This document shows, piece after piece, positions 6,405 through 61,406 of a stretch of DNA of 64,000 bases (positions are counted from its first letter, which is position 1; every line of letters begins with the position of its first letter). The position numbers were made by a program, and so were the translations under genes. The notes beneath the pieces were generated by a model. That model had not been told where the DNA came from, did not search any database, and was given only the letters and a program-made list of their open reading frames with translations. This stretch comes from a virus, in IMG/VR virus record IMGVR_UViG_3300044846_003474, positions 44,261 to 108,260 of that record; one strand, written 5' to 3'.

Positions 6405-6422
6405 GTTAGTATTTTTTTACCA

Positions 6423-6435
6423 TGACAATTTGTCA
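6423..6435. promoter_or_regulatory. Operator-like palindrome TGACA-N3-TGTCA (copy 2)
   Basis: This has the same arms as copy 1 with centre ATT. It overlaps an upstream in-frame ATG of the ClpC-like reading frame, which argues that translation starts further down at 6488. Confidence 0.6.
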
Positions 6436-6487
6436 AAAGGTATACTTTTTAAACTTGATTTACTATTTTTTAATAAAACAAAAAGAT

Positions 6488-16063: not shown

Positions 16064-16190
16064 AATTATTGTTTTTATATAAACGTAAATAAAATTTTAA
16101 AGTTTTAGTTAATTAATATTGATGTAAAAATAGTTTTTATTAACCAAGCATTAATTAATATTGTGGACCATATGAGATAAAAGCCCTAAG

Positions 16191-16280
16191 TAATCAAAAA
16201 AGGATTCGAACCAATACAACCGTTTTTAACTCGGTCTCCCCAATAAGATGGGTAGCGTCTACCAATTCCGCCATTTGATT
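16191..16280 (-). tRNA. tRNA-Leu-like gene with irregular anticodon arm
   Basis: The acceptor arms AATCAAA and TTTGATT pair fully. The D arm is GCGGAATTGGTAGACGC as in leucine tRNAs, and a long variable arm (ACCG-CGGT) and T loop TTCGAAT are present; CCA is not encoded. The anticodon stem around ACCCATCTTATTGGGG does not give a clean 5-bp/7-nt arm. If forced, the loop TCTTATT has anticodon TTA with C33 instead of U33. The T stem has only three pairs. It may be decayed, edited or an unusual functional tRNA. Confidence 0.6.
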
Positions 16281-29430: not shown

Positions 29431-29841
29431 TTACCAAGTTCTACACGCCCAATATCTTGGTTTCCATCTTGGGCCGGGATTATCACAATTGTGTCTTGCT
29501 CTAAATGATCTTCTTCTTTCAGGATTATTCTTCTTAATCCTCATTATTTTACCTTTGGCTGATTTTCCACCAAAACCAAAGTTTACCTTAACAACCTTAC
29601 CTTTATCATTTTTAACATATACTTTGGACTTTTTAATGTCACCTTGCATTATCTTACCCAACTGAACTTTTCTTCCCTGATATTCCGCTTCGGTTATTAA
29701 ATCGCCAATAATAAAGTTGGTTTCTTCTACTGAACCATATTCATCTTCATATAAAAAATTTGATTCATTAGTTTCTTTTAATATACTTAAAACAATTCTT
29801 TGTATGTCTGACTCGGTTAAAACAACAATATTTTTTGACAT
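29431..29841 (-). CDS. Class A tagged basic protein with Cys/Trp C-terminus
   Basis: The tag VVLTESDIQRIVLSILKETN ends I-L-K-E; a second site DLITEAEYQG follows. The mature part is basic (GRKVQLGKIMQGDIKKSKV) and closes with RARHNCDNPGPRWKPRYWAC. This C-terminal pattern recurs at the end of many phage proteins of the same kind. It could be a zinc- or disulfide-stabilised DNA-binding internal head protein. Function unknown. Confidence 0.7.
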   Translation of the reverse strand: MSKNIVVLTESDIQRIVLSILKETNESNFLYEDEYGSVEETNFIIGDLITEAEYQGRKVQLGKIMQGDIKKSKVYVKNDKGKVVKVNFGFGGKSAKGKIMRIKKNNPERRRSFRARHNCDNPGPRWKPRYWACRTW

Positions 29842-29921: not shown

Positions 29922-30449
29922 ATGAAAAAAATTAATTTAAACGAGAATACCATTAAAAGGTTAATAAGAAGTATTCTATTGGAGAACGACTCTGAAATAA
30001 AAGATAAGAAAAAAGCTAGACCCACTTGTTTACCTGAAAACACAATTTCATTAGATGAGATGGTTGGTCAGTCAGATGAATTTACCAGATACTCACCTGG
30101 AGTAAGTAAAAGAAGAAATGGGGTTAATTCAATGGTAGATACTTTAGGTATATTAAATAACATTAGATTATTTAAAGATGTAAAAGATGGTGGTAGTCAT
30201 TTAGCATATGAAATGATGAATAATTTGAATAAATTCAGAAATAAAAACTATTTTGATGAAACAAATCAAAAATGTAATAAAGCAATGGATAAAGTAATTG
30301 AGTTATATAAAGAAAATGAACACGGAACAGAATTAGTTAAGGACATTGAACGAGTTTTAAACCTCCAAACAAGGGACGATGAGTATACACCATCACCAAG
30401 AACTAAAGAATACCTTAAACAATGTATTAACTTAGCTAAAGGAGAGTAA
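29922..30449 (+). CDS. Class A tagged protein (175 aa)
   Basis: Tag MKKINLNENTIKRLIRSILLEND ends L-L-E-N. The body is helical, with two cysteines (NQKCNKAMDK, LKQCINLAK) and no catalytic motif. Preceded by ATATATTTATAG and followed by a terminator. One of the rare plus-strand tagged genes, showing that the tag goes with the gene and not with one operon. Confidence 0.63.
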   Translation: MKKINLNENTIKRLIRSILLENDSEIKDKKKARPTCLPENTISLDEMVGQSDEFTRYSPGVSKRRNGVNSMVDTLGILNNIRLFKDVKDGGSHLAYEMMNNLNKFRNKNYFDETNQKCNKAMDKVIELYKENEHGTELVKDIERVLNLQTRDDEYTPSPRTKEYLKQCINLAKGE

Positions 30450-31764: not shown

Positions 31765-32589
31765 TTATTTAAGTAAATTATAGTACTCTTTGAAGTGTTT
31801 AATACGATCAGGTAGTCCAATTGTGCCTCCATTCACTCTTTTTGTTACTGCAGTTACCGTTGCATCGTCAGATCCCTTGTCACAGATAGACCATAACTTG
31901 TTTGAGTCAAAAAAGAACGCCGCAGAAGCCAATGGATACTTAGTTGCAACCAAATCGGGGTTAGAAATACAATCTTCACCAATAAATTTGGTAAAATTTG
32001 TGTAATTTGACTTACCTGTCAACTGAATATACCCTCTACCTCTGAATTTGAACCCTTCTTTAGTGGTTTCATCCCCATTTCCCATTCTACTAGCGTAAAC
32101 ACGAGCTGCAATCTTTTCAGGTTGACGAGCATATGATTCATTTAGGTTACCAGGGAAGTATTTTCCGAATATTTTCTTCAAACCATCCGCAGAATAGTTT
32201 AAATTCTCAGAAACCGCCTTAAAACCTCCTGATTCGTGACCACATTGAGCCAAAAAGTGAGCCAAACGTAGATTATTTGTAATATTGAACTTTTTTGCAG
32301 TCTCAGGTATCTGTGCAATCACTGCATCAGGTATATGTCCCTTTAATTTTTCAATATTTAATGATCCACCTGAAGGAATTACCACATCTTCTTTGATAAT
32401 TTTAGTAGATCCGAACATTTTTGACCATGTTCCATCACCAACAATACCATCTGCGGTTAATCCATTGGTAGATTGCCATTGTTTTACTGCTTTTTCTGTT
32501 CCAGGTCCAAATGCACCGTCAGCAGTAAGTCCTAATTTTGTTTGGAGTGTTTTTACATCCTCTCCTTTAGATCCATTTTTTAATAACAT
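31765..32589 (-). CDS. Endolysin: peptidoglycan-binding domain plus GH19-type glycoside hydrolase
   Basis: Residues about 1-58 are a PG_binding_1 domain (NGSKGEDVKTLQTKLGL then TWSKMFG). Residues about 85-270 are a GH19 chitinase-like lysozyme: LAHFLAQCGHESGGF with the catalytic Glu, FRGRGYIQLTGKSNY, and a C-terminal VTKRVNGG. It would cut glycan strands of the host wall at lysis. Cytoplasmic, no signal peptide, so it depends on a holin. Confidence 0.92.
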   Translation of the reverse strand: MLLKNGSKGEDVKTLQTKLGLTADGAFGPGTEKAVKQWQSTNGLTADGIVGDGTWSKMFGSTKIIKEDVVIPSGGSLNIEKLKGHIPDAVIAQIPETAKKFNITNNLRLAHFLAQCGHESGGFKAVSENLNYSADGLKKIFGKYFPGNLNESYARQPEKIAARVYASRMGNGDETTKEGFKFRGRGYIQLTGKSNYTNFTKFIGEDCISNPDLVATKYPLASAAFFFDSNKLWSICDKGSDDATVTAVTKRVNGGTIGLPDRIKHFKEYYNLLK

Positions 32590-32694: not shown

Positions 32695-33291
32695 ATGGGA
32701 CACGATAAAGAACAGGTTGAGGCTGCCGTAAAAGCCAAAGGTTACGTTTGGTTTGAAGACGTAAACAACAAAGGATACGATGTTAACATCGTTGGTATTA
32801 GGAACTCGTCTACGGGTGATAAAGTTACAAATTTGTTTGATGATTTATTAACTATTTCGTACAAAGAAAATGGTGAATGGAAATTTCATTCTTGGCCGGC
32901 AACTACAGATCCAGGAACAAAGGGGGTTAAACAATTTGGTAATAAATCTGGAGTTGCTAGACTTGTTGAAGGTCAATACAGAGGTTCTCACATTATTAGA
33001 TTACATGGAGGAAAATACGAAGCTTTAGGACAAAACAAACCAGTTAAAGTTTATAGAGATGCAAACCGTGATATGGTATATGACGAAAAACTAATTCAAG
33101 AAGGTGTTTTTGGAATAAATATTCACAAAGCAGGTGCCGATTCTACATATGTGGAAAATTGGTCTGAAGGATGTCAAGTATTTAAAAAATCTGCCGACTT
33201 TGAGGAATTTATGAAAATTTGTAGAAAGTCAAAAGATATTCACGGTAATTCTTTCACTTATACATTAATAGAATCTTCGGATATAAAATAA
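32695..33291 (+). CDS. YkuD-like (L,D-transpeptidase-fold) phage protein
   Basis: The 198 residues contain VFGINIHKAG and ENWSEGCQVFK, that is His and then S-x-G-C about 18 residues apart, the catalytic arrangement of L,D-transpeptidases. The N-terminal part is beta-rich. No signal peptide. It might modify or cut peptidoglycan cross-links. First gene of the plus-strand run that leads into the secreted/surface operon, although its own function may be lysis-related. Confidence 0.65.
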   Translation: MGHDKEQVEAAVKAKGYVWFEDVNNKGYDVNIVGIRNSSTGDKVTNLFDDLLTISYKENGEWKFHSWPATTDPGTKGVKQFGNKSGVARLVEGQYRGSHIIRLHGGKYEALGQNKPVKVYRDANRDMVYDEKLIQEGVFGINIHKAGADSTYVENWSEGCQVFKKSADFEEFMKICRKSKDIHGNSFTYTLIESSDIK

Positions 33292-33311: not shown

Positions 33312-35222
33312 ATGAAAAATTTATTTAGATTTATTCTAACTTTACTTTTATTTATCCCATTTATTGGGTTTTCACAAGTACCTGCAGCACCATCTAATGG
33401 TTTATGGGGTATTATCGCATCACAATACCAAGTAGGGACTACTGCTCAGGGTACAACTACCGCTAAAATTACGTTACAAAACACTACACTAACAAAATTT
33501 GCGGGAGTTCAATTCAGAGTATTCTATGATAAGGTAGCTTTTACAAATGCAACTGTATCATTGATAGGATCAACAACAAACTTAGACCTTCAATATATAA
33601 CTAACACAACAAATGGTTATATTACTGTTACTTTAAGTTATACAGGACCAAGTGCGACGTACACAATACCAAATGGTGAGAATTTTTTAATCACATTTAC
33701 TCACGCACCGGCATCCACATTCAATAACTTAGCTTCTATAAGTAATTTAACTTGGACAGGGGTTCAAACTTTCACACCATATGCCGCAAAACAAGATGGT
33801 ATGGATACTACTTTAAGTGTTCATAACTACGGTGGTGTATTTACACCTGTAAACTTTGCATATCACGGAACATTTACAAACGTAACGGGTACGGGAGCAA
33901 AAACCTTAACCTTATCTTTAGAAAAGAAACCATTAGGTGGTAATACTTGGACACAACACTCTATATACACAACAGATAATGATGGTGATTTTGCCATTTC
34001 AGTTCCATTGGATACAACTTTTTGGGATGTTCGTTTATCCGTTCAAGGTGATACTATGGGTGTAGGTAACGTTATCTCATCAACAGATGCTCAATTAATT
34101 AATCAGTGGGTATTGGGTAACGGTACTATGACAGGATTTAACTACTACACTGCAGATGTTAATGGATCGTATAGTACTACAATATCTGATGTATGGGGTG
34201 TGTTTGGTAGAGTTTCGGGTAGATTTACTCAATGGCCTAACAACACTAAAGATGTTAAATTCTTTACATCATCAGAATACACAACAATTAACGGATCACC
34301 AACTAACTACACATCAACAATTGGTGGTGTTACTAACTTTACATTTGATATATTACCGGGTCAACCTGATTCAGTTGTTTATTATGTAATGGTATCGGGT
34401 GATGCAAATGGCACAGGTTATCATATGGCTCGTGTTACTCCTATTGAAGTAGTTGTTGGACCGGCTCCTGGTTTAGAGAACCAAATCTATAATGTTATTG
34501 ACACTAAAGTTGAATACGATTTCCCTACACAATCTATTGAGGTAAACGTACCACACATTTCAGTACAAGCTGGAAATTTGGTTGAACTTCCTGTTAAAGT
34601 TAATACTAACGGGGTGGAGTTAAGTTCATTACAGTTTGGTTTTAAATATGACGACACATTATTAGAATTTAAAGGTATTATTTCTTCGGCAGGTGCTATG
34701 AAATGGATTTCATATGTTAATGCTAACGATAGTGAAATTGATTGGGGTGGATTTGACCCAACAAATAATACAAATACATTAAAAGATGGTGACCAAGTAG
34801 TTACATTACAATTCTTGGCTTTACAACCACAAAATTTATGGGAGGCAAGTCCATTATATACTACAAGAAAATTTGCAGGTAATACTTTATCAAAAGACTT
34901 AACCTTAACTCCCACAAATGGTATTCTTCAAGTGTTAAAAATGGAAGGTGGTGAAATTCTAAATGGTAATAACATGGAAGTTTATCCTAACCCATATCAA
35001 GATGAGGTAACAATTACATTCAAAGTTGAAGAAACTACAAACGCTACGTTATCAATTTATGATATTGTAGGTAGAAAATTAGTTACAATTTTGGATACGC
35101 AAATCCCTAATGGGGTTTATAACTACACTAAAGATTTAGGGCAATTAGTTCCTGGTGTATATGTAGTTAAACTTACTGTAGAAAATGGTGTTTCATCATT
35201 TGAAAGAATAGTAAAACAATAA
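33312..35222 (+). CDS. Secreted cohesin/dockerin-like protein with a T9SS C-terminal sorting domain
   Basis: The 636 residues start with a signal peptide ending FIGFSQ (about residue 22). A cohesin-like beta domain (about 30-150), a dockerin-like segment (VISSTDAQLINQWVLGN, then ADVNGSYSTTISD) and a second cohesin-like domain (about 410-545) follow. The last about 80 residues, from VYPNPYQDEVTITF via YDIVGRK to LVPGVYVVKL, are a type A T9SS (Por) sorting domain. The protein should be exported by Sec and then moved through the host T9SS to the cell surface. Very unusual in a phage genome; points to gliding/T9SS-bearing flavobacterial hosts. Confidence 0.88.
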   Translation: MKNLFRFILTLLLFIPFIGFSQVPAAPSNGLWGIIASQYQVGTTAQGTTTAKITLQNTTLTKFAGVQFRVFYDKVAFTNATVSLIGSTTNLDLQYITNTTNGYITVTLSYTGPSATYTIPNGENFLITFTHAPASTFNNLASISNLTWTGVQTFTPYAAKQDGMDTTLSVHNYGGVFTPVNFAYHGTFTNVTGTGAKTLTLSLEKKPLGGNTWTQHSIYTTDNDGDFAISVPLDTTFWDVRLSVQGDTMGVGNVISSTDAQLINQWVLGNGTMTGFNYYTADVNGSYSTTISDVWGVFGRVSGRFTQWPNNTKDVKFFTSSEYTTINGSPTNYTSTIGGVTNFTFDILPGQPDSVVYYVMVSGDANGTGYHMARVTPIEVVVGPAPGLENQIYNVIDTKVEYDFPTQSIEVNVPHISVQAGNLVELPVKVNTNGVELSSLQFGFKYDDTLLEFKGIISSAGAMKWISYVNANDSEIDWGGFDPTNNTNTLKDGDQVVTLQFLALQPQNLWEASPLYTTRKFAGNTLSKDLTLTPTNGILQVLKMEGGEILNGNNMEVYPNPYQDEVTITFKVEETTNATLSIYDIVGRKLVTILDTQIPNGVYNYTKDLGQLVPGVYVVKLTVENGVSSFERIVKQ

Positions 35223-35247
35223 ACAAATAAATAAAAACAAAAAAACA

Positions 35248-35583
35248 ATGAGTGAAGAAACACAAGAGGCAAATGACGGAACTTGGTCAGGTCTAAAAAA
35301 AACAATCATCGGAACACTTACTACTGTTATTGCAGGTGGTGGAGTGTGGGTTAGTACGATAATATTTGGTGGTCATGAAGAACCAAAAGAAGAAACTAAA
35401 ACAGAACAAAATGGAGGTCAAGCACCAATCACTATTAATGTACAACAAAACCAAGAAAATAAACAAAAAACTGAAAACAATGGTGGTGGTACCGTAATTC
35501 GTGAAAGAATTATTGAGAAACCTACATCCAATCCTCAACCAACTCAACCTCAACCTAAAAAAGAGGAAGAAGAATCTTGGTAA
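35248..35583 (+). CDS. Single-pass membrane protein with Gln/Asn-rich exposed region (111 aa)
   Basis: A membrane helix (TIIGTLTTVIAGGGVWVSTII) is followed by a charged, Q/N- and P-rich tail (TINVQQNQENKQKTE, NPQPTQPQPKK). It lies in the plus-strand operon 25 nt after the T9SS-sorted gene. No family recognised. It could be an anchor or spanin-like link for the surface complex; this is context only. Confidence 0.6.
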   Translation: MSEETQEANDGTWSGLKKTIIGTLTTVIAGGGVWVSTIIFGGHEEPKEETKTEQNGGQAPITINVQQNQENKQKTENNGGGTVIRERIIEKPTSNPQPTQPQPKKEEEESW

Positions 35584-35618
35584 TAAACAATTAAAATAAA
35601 CAAATAAAAAAAAACAAA

Positions 35619-35906
35619 ATGTCAGAAAAGAAAACAAAAAAGAAATCATTCTTAGTAAGAATGTTTATGGATCAAAATGATATAAACGAAAAATCAATAG
35701 TAGGTTTTGGTTCATTTTTAATGATGGTGGTGTGTCTTGGTGTTGATATTTGGACAGGATTTCACGGACAAAAAATGCCAATTAACCAATTCATTTATGA
35801 TGGGTTTTTATGGATCACTTTAGGTTGTTTTGGTATTGCATCTGTTGACAAATACTTTGCCGGTAAAAACAAATCTAAATACGAAGAAGAAGAAGTAGAA
35901 GGATAA
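35619..35906 (+). CDS. Two-helix membrane protein, holin-like (95 aa)
   Basis: Basic N-terminus (KKTKKKSFLVRMF), then two hydrophobic helices (FGSFLMMVVCLGVDIW and GFLWITLGCFGIASV) and an acidic tail (KYEEEEVEG). The plan fits small phage holin-like proteins. Its last base overlaps the start of the CsgG-like gene, so the two are coupled. Function inferred from shape only. Confidence 0.6.
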   Translation: MSEKKTKKKSFLVRMFMDQNDINEKSIVGFGSFLMMVVCLGVDIWTGFHGQKMPINQFIYDGFLWITLGCFGIASVDKYFAGKNKSKYEEEEVEG

Positions 35907-36646
35907 TGAAAAAAATATTTTACATATTACCATTGTTATTAATTGGGTGTAAAACTTTACAGGCCCAGCCCCCTCAAAATGGAGGGGGTATTGGTTCTGT
36001 TAAGACTGAACAATATCAAGCTGAATTTGAGAAAAAACAATCAATTAATGATGTTGCAAATTATACTGATACAATACAAGTTCCTATCCAATTATTAAAG
36101 ATTGGTATTAACGAAGAATTGTATGAATTATATCCTGAACTTAAAGATAAAAGAGTAGGTTTAGGTGTGACAAACATTGTAATTGAGTATTTGGAGTACA
36201 CAGGTAGATTTGTATTTACCGAAGAAAAGGAAGACATCAAACAACGAATGATTGCTCAGGACAAAGCGTCTGATAAAGGAATTTCAGTTAATAAAATTGA
36301 TGTAAAAGGAAATGTAATCTTGGCTAAGTATTTTGTATACATAGAAGTTTATGACTTTAGTGTATCGGAGGATGAGGTAGTTAAGGTTAATGGTCAACAA
36401 ACAACAACACAAACAACACGTTTAGGATTACAAATTAAATTTGTAGATGCTGAAACAAGTCAAGTGATCGTAGGTTCAGGATTAGGTGAAGCAAGTACAG
36501 TAAAAACCTCAAATATTTTGGGGGACATCTCTGATGATGTTAAATTCAACCAATCAACTATTGGTATAACAACAAAGAAAGCGTTAGAAACCGCATCTTC
36601 AAGAGTGGTGAGTCGCCTTATCACGAAAGGAGTATTTAAAAATTGA
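35906..36646 (+). CDS. CsgG-family outer-membrane lipoprotein
   Basis: A signal peptide with lipobox LLIGC gives a lipoprotein. VGLGVTNIVIEYLEYTGRF then VFTEEKEDIKQRM and, later, RLGLQIKFVDAETSQVI and a C-terminal TKKALETASSRVVSRLI follow the CsgG family order (curli export pore component). Phages rarely carry CsgG. In an operon with surface proteins it may form an outer-membrane pore or be a decoy that changes the host envelope. Family call fairly good, role open. Confidence 0.75.
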   Translation: MKKIFYILPLLLIGCKTLQAQPPQNGGGIGSVKTEQYQAEFEKKQSINDVANYTDTIQVPIQLLKIGINEELYELYPELKDKRVGLGVTNIVIEYLEYTGRFVFTEEKEDIKQRMIAQDKASDKGISVNKIDVKGNVILAKYFVYIEVYDFSVSEDEVVKVNGQQTTTQTTRLGLQIKFVDAETSQVIVGSGLGEASTVKTSNILGDISDDVKFNQSTIGITTKKALETASSRVVSRLITKGVFKN

Positions 36647-38208
36647 GACTAAATGTTATCATATTTATATTGTTCTGTTTGTTTAATTTTTTTAAGTTAA
36701 ACGCACAAACATATAATTATAGTTACTCTGATCCCTGTACGGGAAATATTAAAACCATAGTGGTACCAATAAATGGTAATGTTACAGTAGGATACTATGG
36801 CGAAATTGGGTCATTTAGTCAAAACGATTTTACAAACGGGACTTTTGATGCTTGGACTAATAACATATTTTCACAATATGGGACAAATAGTCCTTGTTCT
36901 GAAATAGTAGGTTTAGGTACGGCAATAAATGTTACTCAAGGAACTGCGTTAAATGTTATCGGAATTCTAAACTCATTATCATCAATATCTGATTTAGCTT
37001 CAGGATCCACTAATATATTAGGAGGATCTGTTAGTTCTTTAAGTAATGGGGGATCTGGTAATAACAACAAAAAAGGGAATAATTCTCAAAATGGAAGTGG
37101 GAATGTCACAACCAATAATACTCAAAATCAAACGAATGGAACAAGTAACTCTACTCAAGGAGGTTCAACCACTTCTGGATCAAATGAAGGAACTACAAAC
37201 GGAGGAAATGGAACCACTAATCAAAATGTTGGAACTCAAAATTCAACACAAGCAGGAGGAACTACAACTGAAGGTGGATCAAATGAAACAGGAACTCAGT
37301 CGTCTGAATCGTCTGTAAATGGTGGTACAGGAGAAACTAATGGAAACGGGGAAACACCAATAAACAATCAAACAACAACTGAAAATGGAAATAATAGTAG
37401 TGGGGGTGGGAATGTCTCTAATAGTGGGGGTGGGAGTGGTGAATCTACTTCAGGAAATAACCAAACGCAAGAAACTCAAACAACGGAAGAAGGGGGAGGA
37501 CAAACAAATATAACAGGGGGAGCAACCACAACAATAAAATCAACACCATCAAGTAAAGAAGGTGGGAAACCAACAATTGTTGCGAATGGTGATTTTGTTG
37601 GTTTTAACTTTAGAAACTCTGATGTTAGAACAGGTTTAAAGTTAACAGGTGGATATACTGCAATGAGATGGGACGGTAAAAGAAGTTCAGGGTGTTTAGT
37701 TGATTATACATCAGCACTTAGAGGACCTAACATAACAGGATTTTACGCATTCATTAAACCTAAATCAATTATAATAGGTTCAGGTACATTGACCGTAGGA
37801 TTTGAGGGTAATAAATCATTATATGGAACAATAGCGGTAGGTCAAATGTTCACATTTAAAAAACCTAAATCACTTAAACTTATATATATGGGTACAGTAT
37901 CTTATGGTCAAGTATATAGAGAATCTTTTTTAGGTACTGCGTTAATTGTGGGAGCAACTTATGATATGAATATAGGAAAACGATTAGATATTAAATTAAT
38001 GAACTTAATGGTTTATGCGCCTTATGTTAGTTATTATAATGATGTTGTATTAAAATCTCCTTATGTAATGTTACCAAGTATTGGTACAAATATTAAAATT
38101 ACAAAAAAGTTTAAATTTAACATAAACGCAGGTGGCGCTTGGGATTTAAAAACAAGTGCTTTAAATTATACAGTAACGTGTGGAGCAAGAATGTTAGTAG
38201 GACAATAA
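36643..38208 (+). CDS. Secreted Asn/Gly/Thr-repeat protein with outer-membrane barrel-like C-terminus
   Basis: The start is TTG 36643, overlapping the previous TGA by 4 nt; no ATG fits. A signal peptide ends KLNAQ. Residues about 130-300 are a low-complexity region of N, G, T, S and Q. The last about 210 residues alternate amphipathic strands (TGFYAFIKPKSIIIGSGTL, LIYMGTVSYGQVY, CGARMLVGQ), as in outer-membrane beta barrels. A surface-exposed disordered arm on a membrane anchor is the simplest reading. Confidence 0.7.
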   Translation: MRLNVIIFILFCLFNFFKLNAQTYNYSYSDPCTGNIKTIVVPINGNVTVGYYGEIGSFSQNDFTNGTFDAWTNNIFSQYGTNSPCSEIVGLGTAINVTQGTALNVIGILNSLSSISDLASGSTNILGGSVSSLSNGGSGNNNKKGNNSQNGSGNVTTNNTQNQTNGTSNSTQGGSTTSGSNEGTTNGGNGTTNQNVGTQNSTQAGGTTTEGGSNETGTQSSESSVNGGTGETNGNGETPINNQTTTENGNNSSGGGNVSNSGGGSGESTSGNNQTQETQTTEEGGGQTNITGGATTTIKSTPSSKEGGKPTIVANGDFVGFNFRNSDVRTGLKLTGGYTAMRWDGKRSSGCLVDYTSALRGPNITGFYAFIKPKSIIIGSGTLTVGFEGNKSLYGTIAVGQMFTFKKPKSLKLIYMGTVSYGQVYRESFLGTALIVGATYDMNIGKRLDIKLMNLMVYAPYVSYYNDVVLKSPYVMLPSIGTNIKITKKFKFNINAGGAWDLKTSALNYTVTCGARMLVGQ

Positions 38209-39185
38209 TAACTTTAATGTTATTTGTATTTCCGTTTATGGGGTTTACTCAAAACTTTACATATTCGGGATACATTTATAATGCAGATGGAACAGGCGCA
38301 ATTAATGTACCTGTTAAATTATATAAAAGAACTACACCCGTAATGAATGGGTTTACATCACAAAATAATTTTAATGGGCATTCATACTATAGATCAACAG
38401 GGTCAATGACTTGGACTGCAGCTAAACAAGCCTGTATTAATATGGGGGGACATCTTGTTACCTCAACTACATTGGCTGAAAATAATTTTTTATTCGGATT
38501 ATGGCCAAGTGGGTGGATTGGATTAACCGATGAAGTTACCGAAGGTGTTTGGCAATGGGTAACAGGAGAACCATATTCATGGTCTTATTGGAATGGGGGT
38601 GAGCCAAACAACGCTGGTAACGAAGACTACGTCCAATTTGTTGGTGCAGGTAGATGGAATGACTTACCTAATTCATCATTACCATACGTGTTAGAGTTTG
38701 AATATGTGGTTACATATACCGAATGGGTTTTATTTCAAACCGTATATACTAACTCATCAGGATATTATTCAATATCTCAACCTACAAGCCCTGCGGTTGA
38801 GTGGTACTTACAATACGATGCTACAACACCTGTAACCGCATTACAAATAACAGATATGGTAGAGGTTTCTAAAATAGTATTAGGTACAACCCCAATTAAA
38901 AGTATTCATTACCACAGATATGATGTTAACTACGATGGTAAGATAAACATTGCGGATCAAAATTTTATTAACTTAAGGAGGTATAACATATTAACAAATT
39001 GGATTACAATGACTCCATCTAAATTATATACTTCAGCACAATATACGACATTAACGACAAATACATCTGACATGAGATCAACAATTCCTGGTGTATCATC
39101 TATAACAATAAACTCACCTGTAAGTGGTGGATCACAAAACTATTATTTGATTGCTCCTGGGTATAAAACAACCGTAAATTATTAA
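38178..39185 (+). CDS. Secreted C-type lectin-like protein with dockerin-like repeat
   Basis: I choose GTG 38178 because it gives a full signal peptide (WSKNVSRTIITLMLFVFPFM then GFTQ) and overlaps the previous gene by 31 nt; ATG 38217 gives only a stub. A C-type lectin domain spans about residues 65-190 (SMTWTAAKQACINMGGHLV, WIGLTDEVTEGVWQWVTGE, WNGGEPNNAGNEDYV, GRWNDLPN). A later RYDVNYDGKINIADQNFIN is a dockerin-type calcium loop. It probably binds glycans at the host surface and may pair with the cohesin-like protein at 33312. Confidence 0.82.
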   Translation: MWSKNVSRTIITLMLFVFPFMGFTQNFTYSGYIYNADGTGAINVPVKLYKRTTPVMNGFTSQNNFNGHSYYRSTGSMTWTAAKQACINMGGHLVTSTTLAENNFLFGLWPSGWIGLTDEVTEGVWQWVTGEPYSWSYWNGGEPNNAGNEDYVQFVGAGRWNDLPNSSLPYVLEFEYVVTYTEWVLFQTVYTNSSGYYSISQPTSPAVEWYLQYDATTPVTALQITDMVEVSKIVLGTTPIKSIHYHRYDVNYDGKINIADQNFINLRRYNILTNWITMTPSKLYTSAQYTTLTTNTSDMRSTIPGVSSITINSPVSGGSQNYYLIAPGYKTTVNY

Positions 39186-39186
39186 A

Positions 39187-39780
39187 ATGAAAAAATTATT
39201 ACTAACACTATTATTAACATTACCATTATTTGTTTTTAGTCAGAAAACATTAAGAGATTCAATCTACATTAAAACAAATATGTTTGAGATTGTTTACTCC
39301 GAAAAATTACAACAACCAAAGTTTATTCGTTATACGGTACAATGTCCTAATGGATCCGCACCAAGAAAAGGTATGGATTTCTATACTTGTGATTCAATCC
39401 TTACCTCTGATGATAAAGATTATTTTAATAATCCATACGATAAAGGTCATATGGCACCTGCTGCCGACTTTAATTGTACAAAAGATTTGTTATTTAAAAC
39501 GTTCACATATCTAAATTGTTCATTACAACAAGAAAACCTTAACAGAACTACTTGGAGATTGTTAGAGGTTAGGGAAAGAGAATTGGCAAAAACAAATAAA
39601 ACCGTAATCGTTGAGATCCGTTGTATATATAGTACTAAATCAATTGTATTACCAACAGGTGCAACAGTGCCTGATGGATATATTAAAACAATAAAATATA
39701 GTAATAAAATTGAAAAATATTACTTCAAAAATGAAAAACCTTTATTCACTGACTTTACTAAATACATTATTAAAGGTTAG
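39187..39780 (+). CDS. Secreted DNA/RNA non-specific endonuclease (NUC1 family)
   Basis: A signal peptide ends LPLFVFSQ (residue 19). YDKGHMAPAADFN is the D-x-G-H active-site motif of the beta-beta-alpha metal nucleases, and TYLNCSLQQENLNRTTWRLL supplies the Asn/Gln metal-binding helix. The nuclease would act in the periplasm or outside. It could destroy DNA of competing phages at entry, or scavenge nucleotides. It is 1 nt after the lectin gene, so co-expressed. Confidence 0.88.
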   Translation: MKKLLLTLLLTLPLFVFSQKTLRDSIYIKTNMFEIVYSEKLQQPKFIRYTVQCPNGSAPRKGMDFYTCDSILTSDDKDYFNNPYDKGHMAPAADFNCTKDLLFKTFTYLNCSLQQENLNRTTWRLLEVRERELAKTNKTVIVEIRCIYSTKSIVLPTGATVPDGYIKTIKYSNKIEKYYFKNEKPLFTDFTKYIIKG

Positions 39781-39806
39781 TGAGTATTTATATATAAACA
39801 AATATC

Positions 39807-40091
39807 ATGGCAGAGAATACAAACCCAATTTCAGGATTCGCAGATACGTTCTTATCTAAACTTAAAGAACAATCTTTTACCATTATTATTATGGTGGGAA
39901 TCATTTGGTATCAAGGTAGAATGATGGAAGAAAGAGTTGTTTATTGGCAAAAGCTATATGAAGAAAGTAAGGATTATATCCAACAAACAACGAAGGATGA
40001 TAGGGAAGAATTGTTAGAAAGAATAAACTATCTTCAAGATCAAAGAGACAAATATGTTGAGGATGCAATAAATGAATTAAAAGATAAATAA
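39807..40091 (+). CDS. Single-pass membrane protein with coiled coil (94 aa)
   Basis: A membrane helix (FTIIIMVGIIWYQGRMM) is followed by a long charged coiled coil (ESKDYIQQTTKDDREELLER). It resembles the membrane-anchored coiled coil of i-spanin type lysis proteins in form, though sequence does not prove this. Preceded by GTATTTATATATAAAC. Confidence 0.6.
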   Translation: MAENTNPISGFADTFLSKLKEQSFTIIIMVGIIWYQGRMMEERVVYWQKLYEESKDYIQQTTKDDREELLERINYLQDQRDKYVEDAINELKDK

Positions 40092-40094
40092 ATT

Positions 40095-40244
40095 ATGGAA
40101 ACAAACACAAATTTTGAAAACAATCAATCAGCAGAGGTACATTCAGATGAAATTAATAGACAGGCAAGAGAGACACAAGACGCATTAGATAGAGCGGCAA
40201 GAGACGCAGAAAAATCAAAATGGAATCCTAAAAATTGGTTTTAA
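40095..40244 (+). CDS. Small unknown protein (49 aa)
   Basis: METNTNFENNQSAEVHSDEI continues with RAARDAEKSKWNPKNWF. It lies 3 nt after the coiled-coil membrane gene and 2 nt before the next signal-peptide gene, so it is very likely translated in the operon. Helical, charged; ends in a Trp/Phe patch. Confidence 0.6.
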   Translation: METNTNFENNQSAEVHSDEINRQARETQDALDRAARDAEKSKWNPKNWF

Positions 40245-40246
40245 TA

Positions 40247-40702
40247 ATGAAAAAACTAATATTACTTTTTAGTATTATTTTGTTTAGTATGATCACATAT
40301 TCACAAGAATGTGTTCATGTTGATTCGGTATATTCTACGGCAAAACTAAAAGAACTTGGAAAAAGAGATATAAGATTTGGTATTAAACAAATTGTTGAGG
40401 ATGAACTATCTGAGAAATATTGTTTATCGGATCAAGGAAGTGATATTGGTGTTGAAGTTTATTATTTTGGATTACCTAAAACAACCGTGAGAGTTGTTGG
40501 TGTTGAGAAAACAAATACAACAACTCAGATCGGAGTTAAACTTCATTACAAAGGTAATTGTTATCAAGGTATCGGTGAATCAGATACTGAGATAAGGGCA
40601 ATTATGATTGAGGTACAAGAAGGATCAATTCCATTTGAAAAGATGACTGTTTCATCGGCACTTAAAAAGGCAATTCACGACGCAGTTATTAAATTACCAT
40701 GA
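40247..40702 (+). CDS. Secreted protein of unknown function (151 aa)
   Basis: The start is ATG 40247; the longer frame from 40235 overlaps the previous gene. A signal peptide (MKKLILLFSIILFSMITYSQ) precedes a mixed alpha/beta domain with three cysteines. Its middle (TRVVGVEKTNTTTQIGVKL) faintly recalls the beta strands of the CsgG-like protein in this operon, so it may be a partner. No firm family. Confidence 0.6.
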   Translation: MKKLILLFSIILFSMITYSQECVHVDSVYSTAKLKELGKRDIRFGIKQIVEDELSEKYCLSDQGSDIGVEVYYFGLPKTTVRVVGVEKTNTTTQIGVKLHYKGNCYQGIGESDTEIRAIMIEVQEGSIPFEKMTVSSALKKAIHDAVIKLP

Positions 40703-41154
40703 AAATATGTACACTTTTATTGTGTATGTTCACTTTTACCTCACTATTTGGTCAAATAAAAATAACTGATGTTGGTGATGGATGGAAAGGTAAAGTAGAA
40801 CAAGCTTTAGATACAATAAAAAAATACGATACCGAAAAGTATAATTTAGTTATTGGATCTTGTATGTTAGTTGGTTATTGGAACGAATCATTCTCCACAA
40901 CTGAAGGGGACACAACTATTCTGATATCAACAAAAGATATGGACTTCAATAACATCTATAATATCGCATCAATACTTGTTCATGAATCAATACATCTTTA
41001 CATCAAACAATTATATATTAAAGTTCCACCAAACAAAGAGGAAGTCCTTGCGTATCAATACGAGTTGGACTTCCTTAAAAAAATTCCTAATGTGGATCAA
41101 TGGTTAATTGATAATTCAATTAAAAAAATCATTTATTATTCAGGTGAAAATTAA
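40699..41154 (+). CDS. Secreted zincin-like metallopeptidase
   Basis: A signal peptide (MKICTLLLCMFTFTSLFGQ) precedes a small domain with ILVHESIHLYIK, an H-E-x-x-H zinc motif. About 20 residues later EEVLAYQYELDFLKK offers a Glu as third ligand. It overlaps its upstream neighbour by 4 nt. It may process surface proteins of the same operon or of the host. Last gene of the secreted operon. Confidence 0.72.
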   Translation: MKICTLLLCMFTFTSLFGQIKITDVGDGWKGKVEQALDTIKKYDTEKYNLVIGSCMLVGYWNESFSTTEGDTTILISTKDMDFNNIYNIASILVHESIHLYIKQLYIKVPPNKEEVLAYQYELDFLKKIPNVDQWLIDNSIKKIIYYSGEN

Positions 41155-42610: not shown

Positions 42611-43192
42611 TCAATACGAGTTGAATCCATCCCCACGTTTACCTTTTGTATATGGAGTATCTAATCTGTTTGCTCTATCTGAATAACCTTTTAACGCCAC
42701 TACTAATCCTGCCGCAATCATTGCAACAGTTAGTGGACCCGTATATTCAGCGTATCCAAAAGATTGAAAAAACTCGTGAAGTTTAGTCATAAGTTCACTT
42801 TGAGACCATCCTGAAATTTGACTAACAAATCCAACCATTCCCGTAACTGCCGCTGAAATTCCCCCACCAATCATAGTTTTTTCTTTAAAATTTTTAAATC
42901 TACTTTTTAAATCTTCGTTAAGATAGTGTTCATTAATTTCAGGACCTACTTCTCTTGCCATGTGTCTCAATTCAGATTTGTCTTCTGAACTTATGTTAGG
43001 CAATAATTCAGTTTTAAAGAAATCAGCAATAAGGTCAACCGCCTCAGGTTTAGACAATTCTTCTTGTTCCTCACCATATTCCATATCATCTTCTTCATTA
43101 TATTCCATGCTCATGTCTTCTTGAGCTTGTTCTACCATTCTTTTAATTAAGGTAGTTAATTCACTTTCGGTTAATCTTATTTTTCTTTTCAT
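42611..43192 (-). CDS. Class A tagged membrane protein (193 aa)
   Basis: The tag MKRKIRLTESELTTLIKRMV ends M-V-E-Q. An acidic linker follows, then a helical region with LNEDLKSRF and two hydrophobic segments (GGGISAAVTGMVGFVSQI and LTVAMIAAGLVVALKGY). It could insert into membranes after injection. No enzymatic motif. Confidence 0.68.
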   Translation of the reverse strand: MKRKIRLTESELTTLIKRMVEQAQEDMSMEYNEEDDMEYGEEQEELSKPEAVDLIADFFKTELLPNISSEDKSELRHMAREVGPEINEHYLNEDLKSRFKNFKEKTMIGGGISAAVTGMVGFVSQISGWSQSELMTKLHEFFQSFGYAEYTGPLTVAMIAAGLVVALKGYSDRANRLDTPYTKGKRGDGFNSY

Positions 43193-44250: not shown

Positions 44251-44787
44251 TTAGTTTTTTAAAGATGGAATAACATCATCTTCAAAAAACATTTTTACTT
44301 CATGTTTCATACCTTCAATCTCATCTTGGAACCTTCCAACATTATCGTGAATACTTTTAGGGTCTTCATTTATATCGTAGAAATCAAAATCAATTAAGTA
44401 TCCCATTTTGTTTAAAAATAAACCACCAATGTATTCCTTATTTTTAAAATATATTGTACCATACAATGCCGTTTCATCTTCATTTTGTTCTTCGTAATCA
44501 AAAACAAATTCTATTTTTGGGATATGATTAAAAGAGGATGTGAATTTTTCACCTTCTCTATCATTATAACTTTTAAAAGGAGATCCTTCTTTATCATCAT
44601 AACTTTCAGAAGGATCAACAAACTCATCAGGTCTTCCTTTATGTTTAGAAAATGCATCTAAGTATCTTTTTTCATCAACACTTAAAGATTCGTACCCACC
44701 ATCACCAATTTTATCTAATATCCTATCAACCTCTTCTTGATTTTCAAGAAGAATACGATATTGACTCTCTGTGAGTATTATATTCAT
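44251..44787 (-). CDS. Class B tagged protein with DUF6576-like helix motif
   Basis: Start ATG 44787 (MNIILTESQYRILLENQ), 1 nt after the previous stop, with two possible sites (I-L-T-E-S, L-L-E-N). Residues 20-45 (DRILDKIGDGGYESLSVDEK then RYLDAFS) match the short helical module found at the C-terminus of rhomboid-type proteins (DUF6576 pattern). The rest is acidic beta structure. Role unknown. Confidence 0.65.
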   Translation of the reverse strand: MNIILTESQYRILLENQEEVDRILDKIGDGGYESLSVDEKRYLDAFSKHKGRPDEFVDPSESYDDKEGSPFKSYNDREGEKFTSSFNHIPKIEFVFDYEEQNEDETALYGTIYFKNKEYIGGLFLNKMGYLIDFDFYDINEDPKSIHDNVGRFQDEIEGMKHEVKMFFEDDVIPSLKN

Positions 44788-44788
44788 T

Positions 44789-45877
44789 TTATTTACAAAG
44801 TTCTCCGTCTTGTGCTGATTCCAATGCGTCCGCAATAGCATTTAATGTTTCAGGACCAACTTTACCATCTTCTCCAATTTTTTTAGAATAACAACTATTA
44901 ATTTTCTTTTGAAGTTCTAAAACAGATCCTGATTTAAATGAACTTGAATTATTGTCAACAATATAATCAATAATTGCACCTGCGGTTTCTTTTCCTATCT
45001 GACCATCCGCTGATATATCATATCCTTCGTCAGTTAAAAATTTTTGTATATCTTTTATTTTAGCATTTACAGGTTTTATATTACCGTTTCTATTTTCTTT
45101 ATCTGCAAAATCAACATTAGCAAACTCTTTGTCTTCACATGAATAATCTACTTCAACACCTTTACGTAATTTTTTACCATTACCCATATAGTAATCAGTT
45201 CCAATTCTAAAACGAGTTCTTTTACCGTCGGCAAATTTTTCACCCATTGCTTTTGGATGTTCAATAACACACATATACATATTCCAATTATCCTCAGTAC
45301 CACCCCCACCAGGAGTAACTTTTATAGGGTCTACTTTAACATCAGATTTTTTTTCAATTAATTTAGTACTATATCTAATAACATCAACAACAGGTGATAC
45401 TAAATATCGTCTATATTCCTCGTTTTTAAAAAAATCTGCATCCATTGATTCGAAGAAGTCCTCATATTTAGCACTATAACTAGAAATCATATAACAGAAA
45501 TCAGGAAAACTTTTAGTATTACGTATACCATTTGCTACTTTTTTCTCATTAGTTCCAGCACCAAAAGAAATAAACGAATCCCATTCTTCTATTGCATTAT
45601 ATATATTTTCAGCAATACCATCTAAAGCACTTTCACTTTGAGTTATTGGTCCTAACCCTTCTTTACCTGACGTACATACATTACAAATAGATTCAAATCT
45701 GTCTTCAGGATCTGTTTCATTTTCTGTGTATTTTAATTGATCGGCAACGTCTTGTGTGATAGCACCAGGAGATAAACTATTAGTTACTTTATCTTCTTCA
45801 TTAAGTCGTCTTTCATTAAGGACTTTAGTTACGATTCTTTTAAGATCGTTTTCGTTTAATTTAATTATTTTTGCCAT
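44789..45877 (-). CDS. Class A tagged protein with tandem peptidoglycan-binding-like repeats
   Basis: The tag MAKIIKLNENDLKRIVTKVL ends V-L-N-E-R. The middle domain (KSFPDFCYMISSYSAKYEDF) corresponds to that of the gene at 24055-24945. Two C-terminal PG_binding_1-like repeats, each about 45 residues, carry DGQIGKETAGAI and DGKVGPETLNAI. It probably binds host wall from inside or after injection. Six or more cysteines suggest disulfides. Confidence 0.72.
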   Translation of the reverse strand: MAKIIKLNENDLKRIVTKVLNERRLNEEDKVTNSLSPGAITQDVADQLKYTENETDPEDRFESICNVCTSGKEGLGPITQSESALDGIAENIYNAIEEWDSFISFGAGTNEKKVANGIRNTKSFPDFCYMISSYSAKYEDFFESMDADFFKNEEYRRYLVSPVVDVIRYSTKLIEKKSDVKVDPIKVTPGGGGTEDNWNMYMCVIEHPKAMGEKFADGKRTRFRIGTDYYMGNGKKLRKGVEVDYSCEDKEFANVDFADKENRNGNIKPVNAKIKDIQKFLTDEGYDISADGQIGKETAGAIIDYIVDNNSSSFKSGSVLELQKKINSCYSKKIGEDGKVGPETLNAIADALESAQDGELCK

Positions 45878-46804: not shown

Positions 46805-47397
46805 TACACTTCTCCCCATTTAAGGTTTTTTCTACATCCACTTCCGTTACCGCTATCTTTCATTACAATAATAGCAATGATAGTTATAAGTATAATTGCA
46901 CCAATCGCAATTAATGATGACCAACCTACCATAACGGTACCAATCATAATTCCACCTGTCACAATTTGCTCATCAAGTTCTTCAGGTTCTGATGTGTCTC
47001 CAGATTTATTTTTTACAATAGCCATTTTGATACCTTTCTTAACATTCTTAAGAACTTCCCATAATGAGTTCGCCCCCTTTTCTTTTTTTAATCTAAGTAA
47101 CTCAGACTTAACTTTTGACATGATATTATCATTTTCTTGGTTACCAGTAACAATATCACAAACCTGATCATTAGAAACAACATCATCAACACTTGGTACA
47201 TTACTTGCAACCTCACCCAATGAAGAATCATTAACAACTTCTTTTTCAAATATGGATTGGATCTTTTCTTTTGACATAGAACCCATTCCCGACTCTTCTG
47301 AGTCTATATCCGTCTGTTCTGATATAATGACTCCTCTTTTATAAGAAACGAGGTATTTCATCATATTTAATTCTTCATTTAATATTCGTCTTTCCAT
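46804..47397 (-). CDS. Class D tagged membrane protein (197 aa)
   Basis: The tag RRILNEELNMMKYLVSYKRG then VIISEQ is nearly identical to that at 43242. The mature protein is helical with DSEESGMG and ends with a strong double hydrophobic region (TGGIMIGTVMVGWSSLIAIG and ILITIIAIIVMK). The start overlaps the stop of the upstream gene by 19 nt. A membrane-inserting cargo protein is inferred. Confidence 0.68.
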   Translation of the reverse strand: MERRILNEELNMMKYLVSYKRGVIISEQTDIDSEESGMGSMSKEKIQSIFEKEVVNDSSLGEVASNVPSVDDVVSNDQVCDIVTGNQENDNIMSKVKSELLRLKKEKGANSLWEVLKNVKKGIKMAIVKNKSGDTSEPEELDEQIVTGGIMIGTVMVGWSSLIAIGAIILITIIAIIVMKDSGNGSGCRKNLKWGEV

Positions 47398-47699
47398 AAT
47401 TTCATATTTTTAACATAAGCCTTTTCAGCATACTCAATAAAGTTATCACCATATATTCTTGCAAGTCTATCCATCATCAACTGAGGATTTTTTCTCATAT
47501 ATCTCAATACATCATTTGGAATCTGATCCTCGTATTTACCAAACATATTTTGTATTTGTTTTTCTCTTGGGATCATCCTAACGTTTGGTTCCACAGTAAA
47601 TGAATTATCTCTTGGTTCATCCAAAAATTCATTTTCATTTAAAATGTTTTTGATAATCTTAGTTAAATTAGATTCTGTTAAGCGTACAACCTTATTCAT
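47379..47699 (-). CDS. Class A tagged helical protein (106 aa)
   Basis: The tag MNKVVRLTESNLTKIIKNIL ends I-L-N-E-N. The remainder is helical and charged (DVLRYMRKNPQLMMDRLARI) and ends AYVKNMKLWKDEY. No enzyme motif. It overlaps the next gene and lies after an AT-rich motif (TATATTTATATAG). Confidence 0.65.
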   Translation of the reverse strand: MNKVVRLTESNLTKIIKNILNENEFLDEPRDNSFTVEPNVRMIPREKQIQNMFGKYEDQIPNDVLRYMRKNPQLMMDRLARIYGDNFIEYAEKAYVKNMKLWKDEY

Positions 47700-51587: not shown

Positions 51588-52016
51588 TTAGTTTTTTTTA
51601 AAGTTTTTTATCACCTCATCTTTAGTGATATATCCTTTATTTGGTTTTTTACTTCTAAATACATCATTTTTGGCATAATGTAACAGTTCTTCCAAAACTT
51701 CAACAAGATCGGAAGGTTTAATTTCAGAATAATGTTTATGATTAATTATGTCATTAAAATCACTTTTAAGATCCATTTTTTTATCTGAAAGGTTTTCATT
51801 GACCCTTCTGTTGGGCAATCTACGATACCTTCTTTCTGTTAGGTTTTGTTCAGGGTTATTTTTGTTTTCAACACCTACACTATCGGCATAGATATCGGTT
51901 CTTCCTTCATATTCTGGGAAATCATCTTTTTCGCCATCACCAGGATCTGATTCTCTGATTATTTTTTTAACTAACATATTAATGTCTTTTTCTGTAAGTC
52001 TTACTATTTTTTTCAT
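51588..52016 (-). CDS. Class A tagged protein (142 aa)
   Basis: Tag MKKIVRLTEKDINMLVKKII ends I-I-R-E-S. The mature part contains a basic RRYRRLPNRRVNENL and a helical C-terminal domain (SDLVEVLEELLHYAKNDV). A second site V-N-E-N is present. No family. It lies 2 nt after the Tae4-like gene and should be co-transcribed with it, which makes it a candidate partner or immunity-type protein; that is context only. Confidence 0.66.
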   Translation of the reverse strand: MKKIVRLTEKDINMLVKKIIRESDPGDGEKDDFPEYEGRTDIYADSVGVENKNNPEQNLTERRYRRLPNRRVNENLSDKKMDLKSDFNDIINHKHYSEIKPSDLVEVLEELLHYAKNDVFRSKKPNKGYITKDEVIKNFKKN

Positions 52017-60878: not shown

Positions 60879-61406
60879 TTATTTTGAATGTTGATGATCA
60901 TATGTATTATCTCCCATACGCATTACTTTATCTGCTTTGAATTGTCCAAATCTTTTTTCATAATCATCGCTCATTCTAGCCTGATCCGAATAATCGTGAG
61001 CAACTTCTAATTTTAAAATTCTTTCAATTCTTTTAGGGTCGTCTCCTTTGAATAATAAAACTTTTCTGTCTCTAAAACCTTGATCTCTTGTATCGTCCGT
61101 AACATCAATACCCCAATATGTTTCATCAGTATCATTATCACGATACTCTTTCATGGTAAAGAAGTTACCTTCTTGGTCACCACCAGTTGATTTTCTAACA
61201 TTACCTGTTGGGGTCATTTTATTTATTAGTGAACGGTTACTTAGATAATCATATGCCCTTTTTATAATTGCACCACCTAACGCAATTCCACCTAAAGTTA
61301 ATAAAACACTTTCGTTAATATTTTTTTTACTTTTCTTTTCTTCTATGATAACTCTTTTAACCAATCTTGTTAAATCTGATTCAGTTAATCTTATAATTCT
61401 TGCCAT
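60879..61406 (-). CDS. Class A tagged protein with a membrane segment (175 aa)
   Basis: Tag MARIIRLTESDLTRLVKRVI ends I-I-E-E; a second site I-N-E-S follows. Then a hydrophobic helix (VLLTLGGIALGGAIIKRAY) and an alpha/beta domain (EGNFFTMKEYRDNDTDETYW, RDRKVLLFKGDDPKRIERI). It is followed 8 nt upstream by the tagged gene at 61415, so they form a pair. Function unknown. Confidence 0.66.
   Translation of the reverse strand: MARIIRLTESDLTRLVKRVIIEEKKSKKNINESVLLTLGGIALGGAIIKRAYDYLSNRSLINKMTPTGNVRKSTGGDQEGNFFTMKEYRDNDTDETYWGIDVTDDTRDQGFRDRKVLLFKGDDPKRIERILKLEVAHDYSDQARMSDDYEKRFGQFKADKVMRMGDNTYDHQHSK

Follow-up and report, generated by a model that had tools for sequence, protein, structure and literature searches.

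A tightly packed block of phage genes for exported proteins, conserved as a unit, probably serves to remodel the exterior of the infected Bacteroidota cell by way of the host's own T9SS, a surface-display reading to which we assign a probability of roughly 60%. The block (Table 1) encodes a scaffold with a cohesin and a T9SS sorting tail, a C-type lectin, two CsgG-like proteins, a predicted outer-membrane barrel, small membrane proteins and exported enzymes. It lies in a window of 64,000 nt, the whole stretch analysed here, which is part of a 108,260-base IMG/VR virus record.

Genome setting and gene layout

The capsid, portal, protease and terminase proteins of this genome have relatives in the T4-like Flavobacterium phage vB_FspM_immuto (NC_055915; hereafter immuto), an isolated phage whose host is Flavobacterium sp. 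LMO8. Judged by sequence, the module carriers with a traceable capsid gene are T4-like phages, immuto among them. Two further relatives were found in MAGs labelled Bacteroidetes and Flavobacterium, and the indirect evidence points to a Bacteroidota host for this virus.

An initial annotation had described positions 33312–41154 as a phage operon of secreted and surface proteins. All the ORFs it named were confirmed on the + strand within these limits, with small gaps or overlaps between them, and their domains, signal peptides and conservation as a unit bear the description out. The layout resembles that of one transcription unit. The Bacteroidetes-type promoter motif TANNTTTG occurs 108 times against an expected 108 and so shows no enrichment, and a scan for sigma-70-type promoters gave matches at chance level.

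Table 1. Coordinates in the window of the module genes and of the linked endolysin gene.
Product	Position	Strand	Features and basis
Endolysin (PG_binding_1 + glycoside hydrolase 19)	31765..32589	-	Linked lysis gene
Scaffold, 636 aa	33312..35222	+	Signal peptide, N-terminal domain, dockerin-bearing module, cohesin, T9SS type A sorting tail
tm1, 111 aa	35248..35583	+	One predicted membrane helix near N-terminus
tm2, 95 aa	35619..35906	+	Two likely membrane helices, holin-like shape; accessory part
CsgG-fold exported protein, 246 aa	35906..36646	+	Predicted fold (Foldseek); lipobox LLIG/C in this member
Predicted outer-membrane barrel protein, 521 aa	36643..38208	+	AlphaFold2, Foldseek, alignments
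C-type lectin, C-terminal dockerin-like module	38178..39185	+	PF00059; EPN and WND motifs; ORF readable from TTG 38139
Secreted DNA/RNA non-specific endonuclease	39187..39780	+	PF01223 E=2e-20; optional part
Small membrane protein, weakly holin-like	39807..40091	+	PHROG holin E=0.034 only
Short exported CsgG-like protein	40247..40702	+	hhalign vs CsgG-like family; alternative start TTG 40235
Exported HExxH protein (SprT-like or zincin-like)	40699..41154	+	Weak PF10263 match

The scaffold and its T9SS tail

The scaffold begins with a domain lacking a family match (residues ~24–180), followed by a dockerin-bearing module (~180–385), a cohesin (409–505, extending to ~542) and the T9SS type A sorting tail (557–636). 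The tail scores above the curated cut-offs of both PF18962 (E=6e-12, 46 bits, cut-off 27) and TIGR04183 (E=1e-13, 51 bits, cut-off 23), which upholds the earlier identification of a signal-peptide protein with a C-terminal T9SS sorting domain. All 32 aligned scaffold relatives give a sorting-domain match at E<=0.01, and across them PNP, F570, G587, G601, Y605, G615 and Y617 are invariant; this constancy of PNP and of several Gly, Phe and Tyr residues holds down to ~50% overall identity. Each of 20 module-bearing records encodes exactly one sorting-domain protein, above cut-off in 19, and a Sec signal peptide was recognised in 95 of 101 unique scaffold relatives (heuristic scan, not SignalP). 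The family profile weakly retrieves a solved T9SS sorting-domain chain (8glj, E=0.07) at the expected position; the tail alone, as a tblastn query against the phage collection, gave no match. By its tail and signal peptide, the scaffold is a predicted T9SS type A substrate that a host with a working T9SS might sort.

In immuto two genes encode the scaffold; the one for the cohesin and tail comes with a signal peptide of its own, which suggests that the two halves are exported independently there. A divergent locus, L090, encodes a scaffold relative without the T9SS tail, which weighs against the surface-display reading. A lipoprotein at that locus was considered as the tail carrier and rejected, the resemblance being unconvincing at 5.9 bits.

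Cohesin, dockerin-like modules and the lectin

The cohesin and dockerin-like parts proposed initially fared unequally. The scaffold cohesin lies above the PF00963 cut-off (E=1e-8, 35.7 bits, cut-off 24.1) and is matched at E<=0.01 in 29 of 32 relatives, whereas dockerin matches in the window's own proteins fall below the Pfam cut-off, which, together with a degenerate first calcium loop in the scaffold, counts against surface display. A dockerin match at E<=0.01 was obtained in 13 of the 32 scaffold relatives (best 2e-4). In searches with the scaffold family profile, the solved ScaB dockerin (4uyp) is retrieved at E=1.4e-4 and solved cohesins weakly at E=0.03–0.05, each at the expected position. 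The N-terminal domain as a second cohesin is unsupported (hhalign E=0.2), though one Pfam run gave a second cohesin stretch.

The lectin, which probably starts at GTG 38178 rather than TTG 38139, matches PF00059 above cut-off (E=6e-14, 53 bits, cut-off 22.6). It has the EPN and WND motifs characteristic of mannose-type C-type lectins, and 59 of 73 unique relatives carry both. The dockerin loop also ascribed to it is less secure, the match being weak at 19 bits, under the cut-off of 22.9; its C-terminal module is nonetheless homologous to the dockerin module in the middle of the scaffold, and from sequence a cohesin–dockerin contact between scaffold and lectin can be envisaged.

Within the lectin family the ends are conserved while the middle is swapped, consisting of the C-type lectin alone or together with LamG-like or Ig-like (Ig_7) domains. 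Both lectin and barrel diverge faster than the CsgG-like protein, with median identities of 0.34 and 0.29, respectively, at a csgG-like identity of 0.7–0.8. Variation of the lectin driven by a DGR was considered and rejected, since no reverse transcriptase (PF00078) was found in any of 17 records.

CsgG-like proteins and the predicted outer-membrane barrel

The protein encoded just before the barrel had been proposed as a CsgG-like lipoprotein. Its fold assignment is favoured by structure prediction: the first 17 PDB matches of the model are CsgG structures (E. coli CsgG; best E=3e-8, probability 1.0, Foldseek), and its first viral structure match is a phage protein annotated as CsgG. The fold match is only moderate because the model has a pLDDT of 59, a low confidence that weighs against the surface-display reading, and TM-scores are below 0.5. 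By contrast, the curated model PF03783 is not matched above cut-off in any of 20 records; two divergent relatives match it below cut-off (E=2e-5 and 1e-3). As the curated model misses the protein while the fold search retrieves CsgG, we describe it as CsgG-like in predicted fold and do not file it as CsgG. Lipoprotein character is not universal either, a lipobox-like Cys being present in 53 of 83 unique relatives (regular expression).

By profile comparison, the short exported protein near the end of the block is a distant homologue of this CsgG-like protein (hhalign E=1e-10 over 116 columns, with two CsgG-like sequences left out of the query alignment); controls match the CsgG-like family only near the signal peptide.

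The barrel protein consists of a signal peptide, a 100-residue N-terminal domain with two invariant Cys, a disordered linker of ~185 residues rich in G/N/S/T, and a C-terminal part predicted as 12 strands. AlphaFold2 modelling thus agrees with the barrel protein with a disordered arm described initially, and Foldseek matches of the model include porins, autotransporter barrels and FapF. The low-complexity arm joined to the barrel varies freely in sequence and length among relatives.

Conservation of the module

A search for the operon in other Bacteroidetes phages, as the initial annotation had suggested, recovered the module in dozens of related viruses. Searches gave 152 confirmed viral stretches for the scaffold and 433 for the CsgG-like family, of which the best 80 were kept in each case. 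Presence was counted over 50 loci with enough flanking DNA, one per distinct csgG-like sequence. Among the matches listed, six core genes (scaffold, tm1, CsgG-like, barrel, lectin and short CsgG-like) each occur in 50 of 50 loci, a set that holds the closest matches only and so under-samples more divergent arrangements. Gene order is nearly fixed across loci. Immuto carries the scaffold (split), tm1, CsgG-like, barrel, lectin, nuclease and short CsgG-like genes, with the lectin and nuclease genes upstream; the names deposited for them are generic (cohesin, lectin, hypothetical).

One scan of bacterial and archaeal genome contigs returned only two relatives, L089 and L090, both on MAG contigs. 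When a host-gene origin was checked, the former proved by gene content to be clearly a phage contig and the latter a divergent variant.

Proposed surface display and competing readings

Signal-peptide-like starts, scored with a simple heuristic, occur in 88–100% of relatives of the scaffold, CsgG-like, barrel, lectin, nuclease, short CsgG-like and zincin proteins; in this genome the same heuristic marks 11 of 140 long ORFs, seven of them in the module. The capsid, portal and terminase genes lie ~33 kb or more from the module on the other strand, and in immuto the block sits among replication and nucleotide genes, far from annotated virion genes. What stands of the surface-rebuilding program proposed initially is thus a secreted and surface-directed set with a T9SS tail, forming one conserved module separate from the virion genes.

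On the surface-display reading, module products would be exported by Sec, and the scaffold, its tail acting as a host T9SS substrate, would be carried across the outer membrane and anchored at the surface. Once there, its cohesin could bind the phage lectin through the dockerin-like module of the latter, and other scaffold copies may be bound in the same way; an exchangeable sugar-binding domain would thereby be displayed in a layer on the cell surface. Parts lacking a T9SS tail may be exported or anchored by an outer-membrane assembly, with a channel role, built from the CsgG-like proteins and the 12-stranded barrel, and the small inner-membrane protein tm1 could be the inner end of this assembly. 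The most likely benefit would be control of binding to the infected cell, either superinfection exclusion, with receptors masked from other phages, or the capture of neighbouring cells.

A more ambitious form of the proposal, which we put forward only tentatively, is a dedicated, envelope-spanning phage surface organelle on infected Bacteroidota cells, conserved across large T4-like phages. Its parts, equally tentative, would be an inner-membrane tether, an outer-membrane complex of CsgG-type and barrel proteins, a T9SS-anchored cohesin scaffold and an interchangeable lectin.

The main rival, owing to the linkage of the module to an endolysin gene, is a role in lysis and release, which we regard as unlikely. 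The CsgG-like, barrel and small membrane proteins would act late in infection together with the endolysin, opening the outer membrane or bridging it, while lectin and scaffold would localise this action or prevent progeny phages from adsorbing again to cell debris. For the unrelated phage Melnitz, CsgG pores have been proposed as lysis regulators (PMC9004378). Among the matches listed, an endolysin relative lies <=10 kb from the module in 35 of 50 loci; in L090 the endolysin gene sits between the csgG-like gene and the start of a barrel gene, and holin-like small proteins are found inside the block. Against this, the immuto block is ~6 kb and ~28 kb from the two endolysins annotated there and adjoins replication and nucleotide genes, and we know of no system that needs a lectin and a sorted cohesin scaffold for lysis.

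A curli-like (type VIII) system is improbable. In such a system the CsgG-like pore would secrete the G/N/Q/S-rich arm, or another subunit, as a cell-gluing fibre, in line with the "sibling capture" proposed for pelagimyophage curli genes (PMC7029224), and the predicted CsgG fold and the presence of FapF, a functional-amyloid exporter, among the structural matches of the barrel model are consistent with it. However, no match to the CsgA, CsgB, CsgE or CsgF families was found among the module proteins scanned, and the low-complexity arm, which varies freely, is joined to the barrel.

That the products are virion components, such as tail fibres or capsid decorations, is very improbable because signal peptides are found on the main products and the block stands apart from the virion genes both in immuto and in this genome; lectin and Ig-like domains are common on phage particles, and Ig_7 and LamG domains occur in the lectin family, but signal-peptide-like starts run throughout the module families and a T9SS tail is encoded in every one of the 20 records.

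Relation to known systems

Phage use of the T9SS, taken in the initial annotation to be undescribed, had in fact been reported for Cryophage (Bellas et al. 2020, PMC7468147), where use of the host system by T9SS-tailed cargo was proposed and superinfection exclusion suggested. T9SS domains near crAss-BACON genes had also been noted (de Jonge et al. 2019, PMC6949934). The present module resembles Cryophage in having phage genes with T9SS type A sorting domains; the Cryophage cargo consists of three variable genes (endoglucanase, GH39, PA14), whereas each phage here has a single tailed scaffold set in a fixed module, and the accessible Cryophage text mentions no CsgG-like, barrel or cohesin module.

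Phage CsgG pores were described between 2020 and 2022 in pelagimyophages (PMC7029224) and Melnitz (PMC9004378), likewise T4-like phages that carry CsgG-fold genes but in which curli subunits are not recognised. There CsgG is paired with CsgF and the hosts are SAR11 or OM43, while the CsgG-like proteins here are paired with a predicted 12-strand barrel, a T9SS scaffold and a lectin. Cellulosome scaffolds (PF00963, PF00404; PDB 4uyp, 4ums) similarly combine cohesin and dockerin-like modules in one scaffold, with a dockerin-like module on the partner; the phage module differs in lacking a cellulase, in its anchoring by a T9SS tail and in its weak dockerin matches. FapF and autotransporter barrels (PDB 5o68, 1uyn) share a 12-stranded outer-membrane barrel with an N-terminal extension, a likeness at the level of predicted fold, with no sequence similarity detected.

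No paper describing the combined module was found in a literature search that reached few subscription papers and preprints. A conserved module uniting T9SS cargo and a CsgG-like pore with cohesin/dockerin parts, a barrel and an exchangeable lectin thus appears to be undescribed. If the surface-display reading is true, a complete kit for remodelling the cell surface through host secretion, beyond scattered cargo genes, is common to many large phages of aquatic Bacteroidota. For phage CsgG-type pores, too, the module points to a role that would be new. The idea can be tested now, since the isolated phage immuto carries the kit.

Small membrane proteins and exported enzymes

In tm1, whose topology was judged by eye, the tail is charged and of low complexity, contains a conserved acidic stretch and ends in W. 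Among the matches listed, tm2 is found in 21 of 50 loci, the nuclease in 14 and the zincin in 40; the immuto relative of tm2 adjoins endolysin and holin genes. The secreted nuclease reported initially is confirmed by a PF01223 match above cut-off. The secreted zincin retains HExxH in 59 of 59 relatives, while its family matches are weak. Two parts present in all 50 loci, tm1 and the short CsgG-like protein, had been absent from the initial annotation.

Flanking genes and a shared N-terminal motif

Eight proteins encoded in the window begin with a common motif, [IV]-x-L-[TN]-E-[SN]-x-[LI]-x-x-[IL]-[IV], which was matched by none of 583 internal windows taken from ORFs of the same genome, and has no match in Flavobacterium phage immuto. 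This motif may represent a packaging or targeting tag.

The 198-aa protein encoded beside the module, the block of secreted and surface protein genes, contains an SEGC motif, and is related to an endolysin family more weakly than to PHROG 3000. Its relatives are frequently found close to the module, on either strand.

Window features outside the module
Feature	Window position	Strand	Remark
Phage-encoded ATP-dependent protease	6422-8548	+	PHROG 4871, E=3e-235
tRNA, four-base anticodon (ctta)	16190-16280		Called by ARAGORN
N-terminal-motif protein	29431-29841	-	
N-terminal-motif protein	29922-30449	+	
198-aa protein	32695-33291		Just upstream of module; related to PHROG 3000
N-terminal-motif protein	42611-43192	-	
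N-terminal-motif protein	44251-44841	-	
N-terminal-motif protein	44789-45877	-	
N-terminal-motif protein	47379-47699	-	
N-terminal-motif protein	51588-52016	-	
N-terminal-motif protein	60879-61406	-	

The four-base-anticodon tRNA call sits among five ordinary phage tRNAs (ARAGORN).

Variation among related loci

A TGA with an ATG immediately after it breaks the scaffold in two related loci, L077 (639-2531) and L079 (7968-9860), at one and the same position; the second half has no signal peptide of its own. Phage immuto (L082, 11598-13422) encodes the scaffold in two genes, and that for the cohesin and T9SS tail has its own signal peptide.

A divergent variant of the module lies in a Flavobacterium MAG (L090, 5921-12112), where the scaffold relative, lacking the T9SS tail, is followed by a small lipoprotein gene. 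This locus also encodes a short barrel-like protein, and its endolysin gene is flanked by the csgG-like and barrel genes. On the 254-kb, phage-like contig of another relative (L089; G025 contig C291), a second T9SS-tailed ORF of 288 aa is found at 133097-133330.
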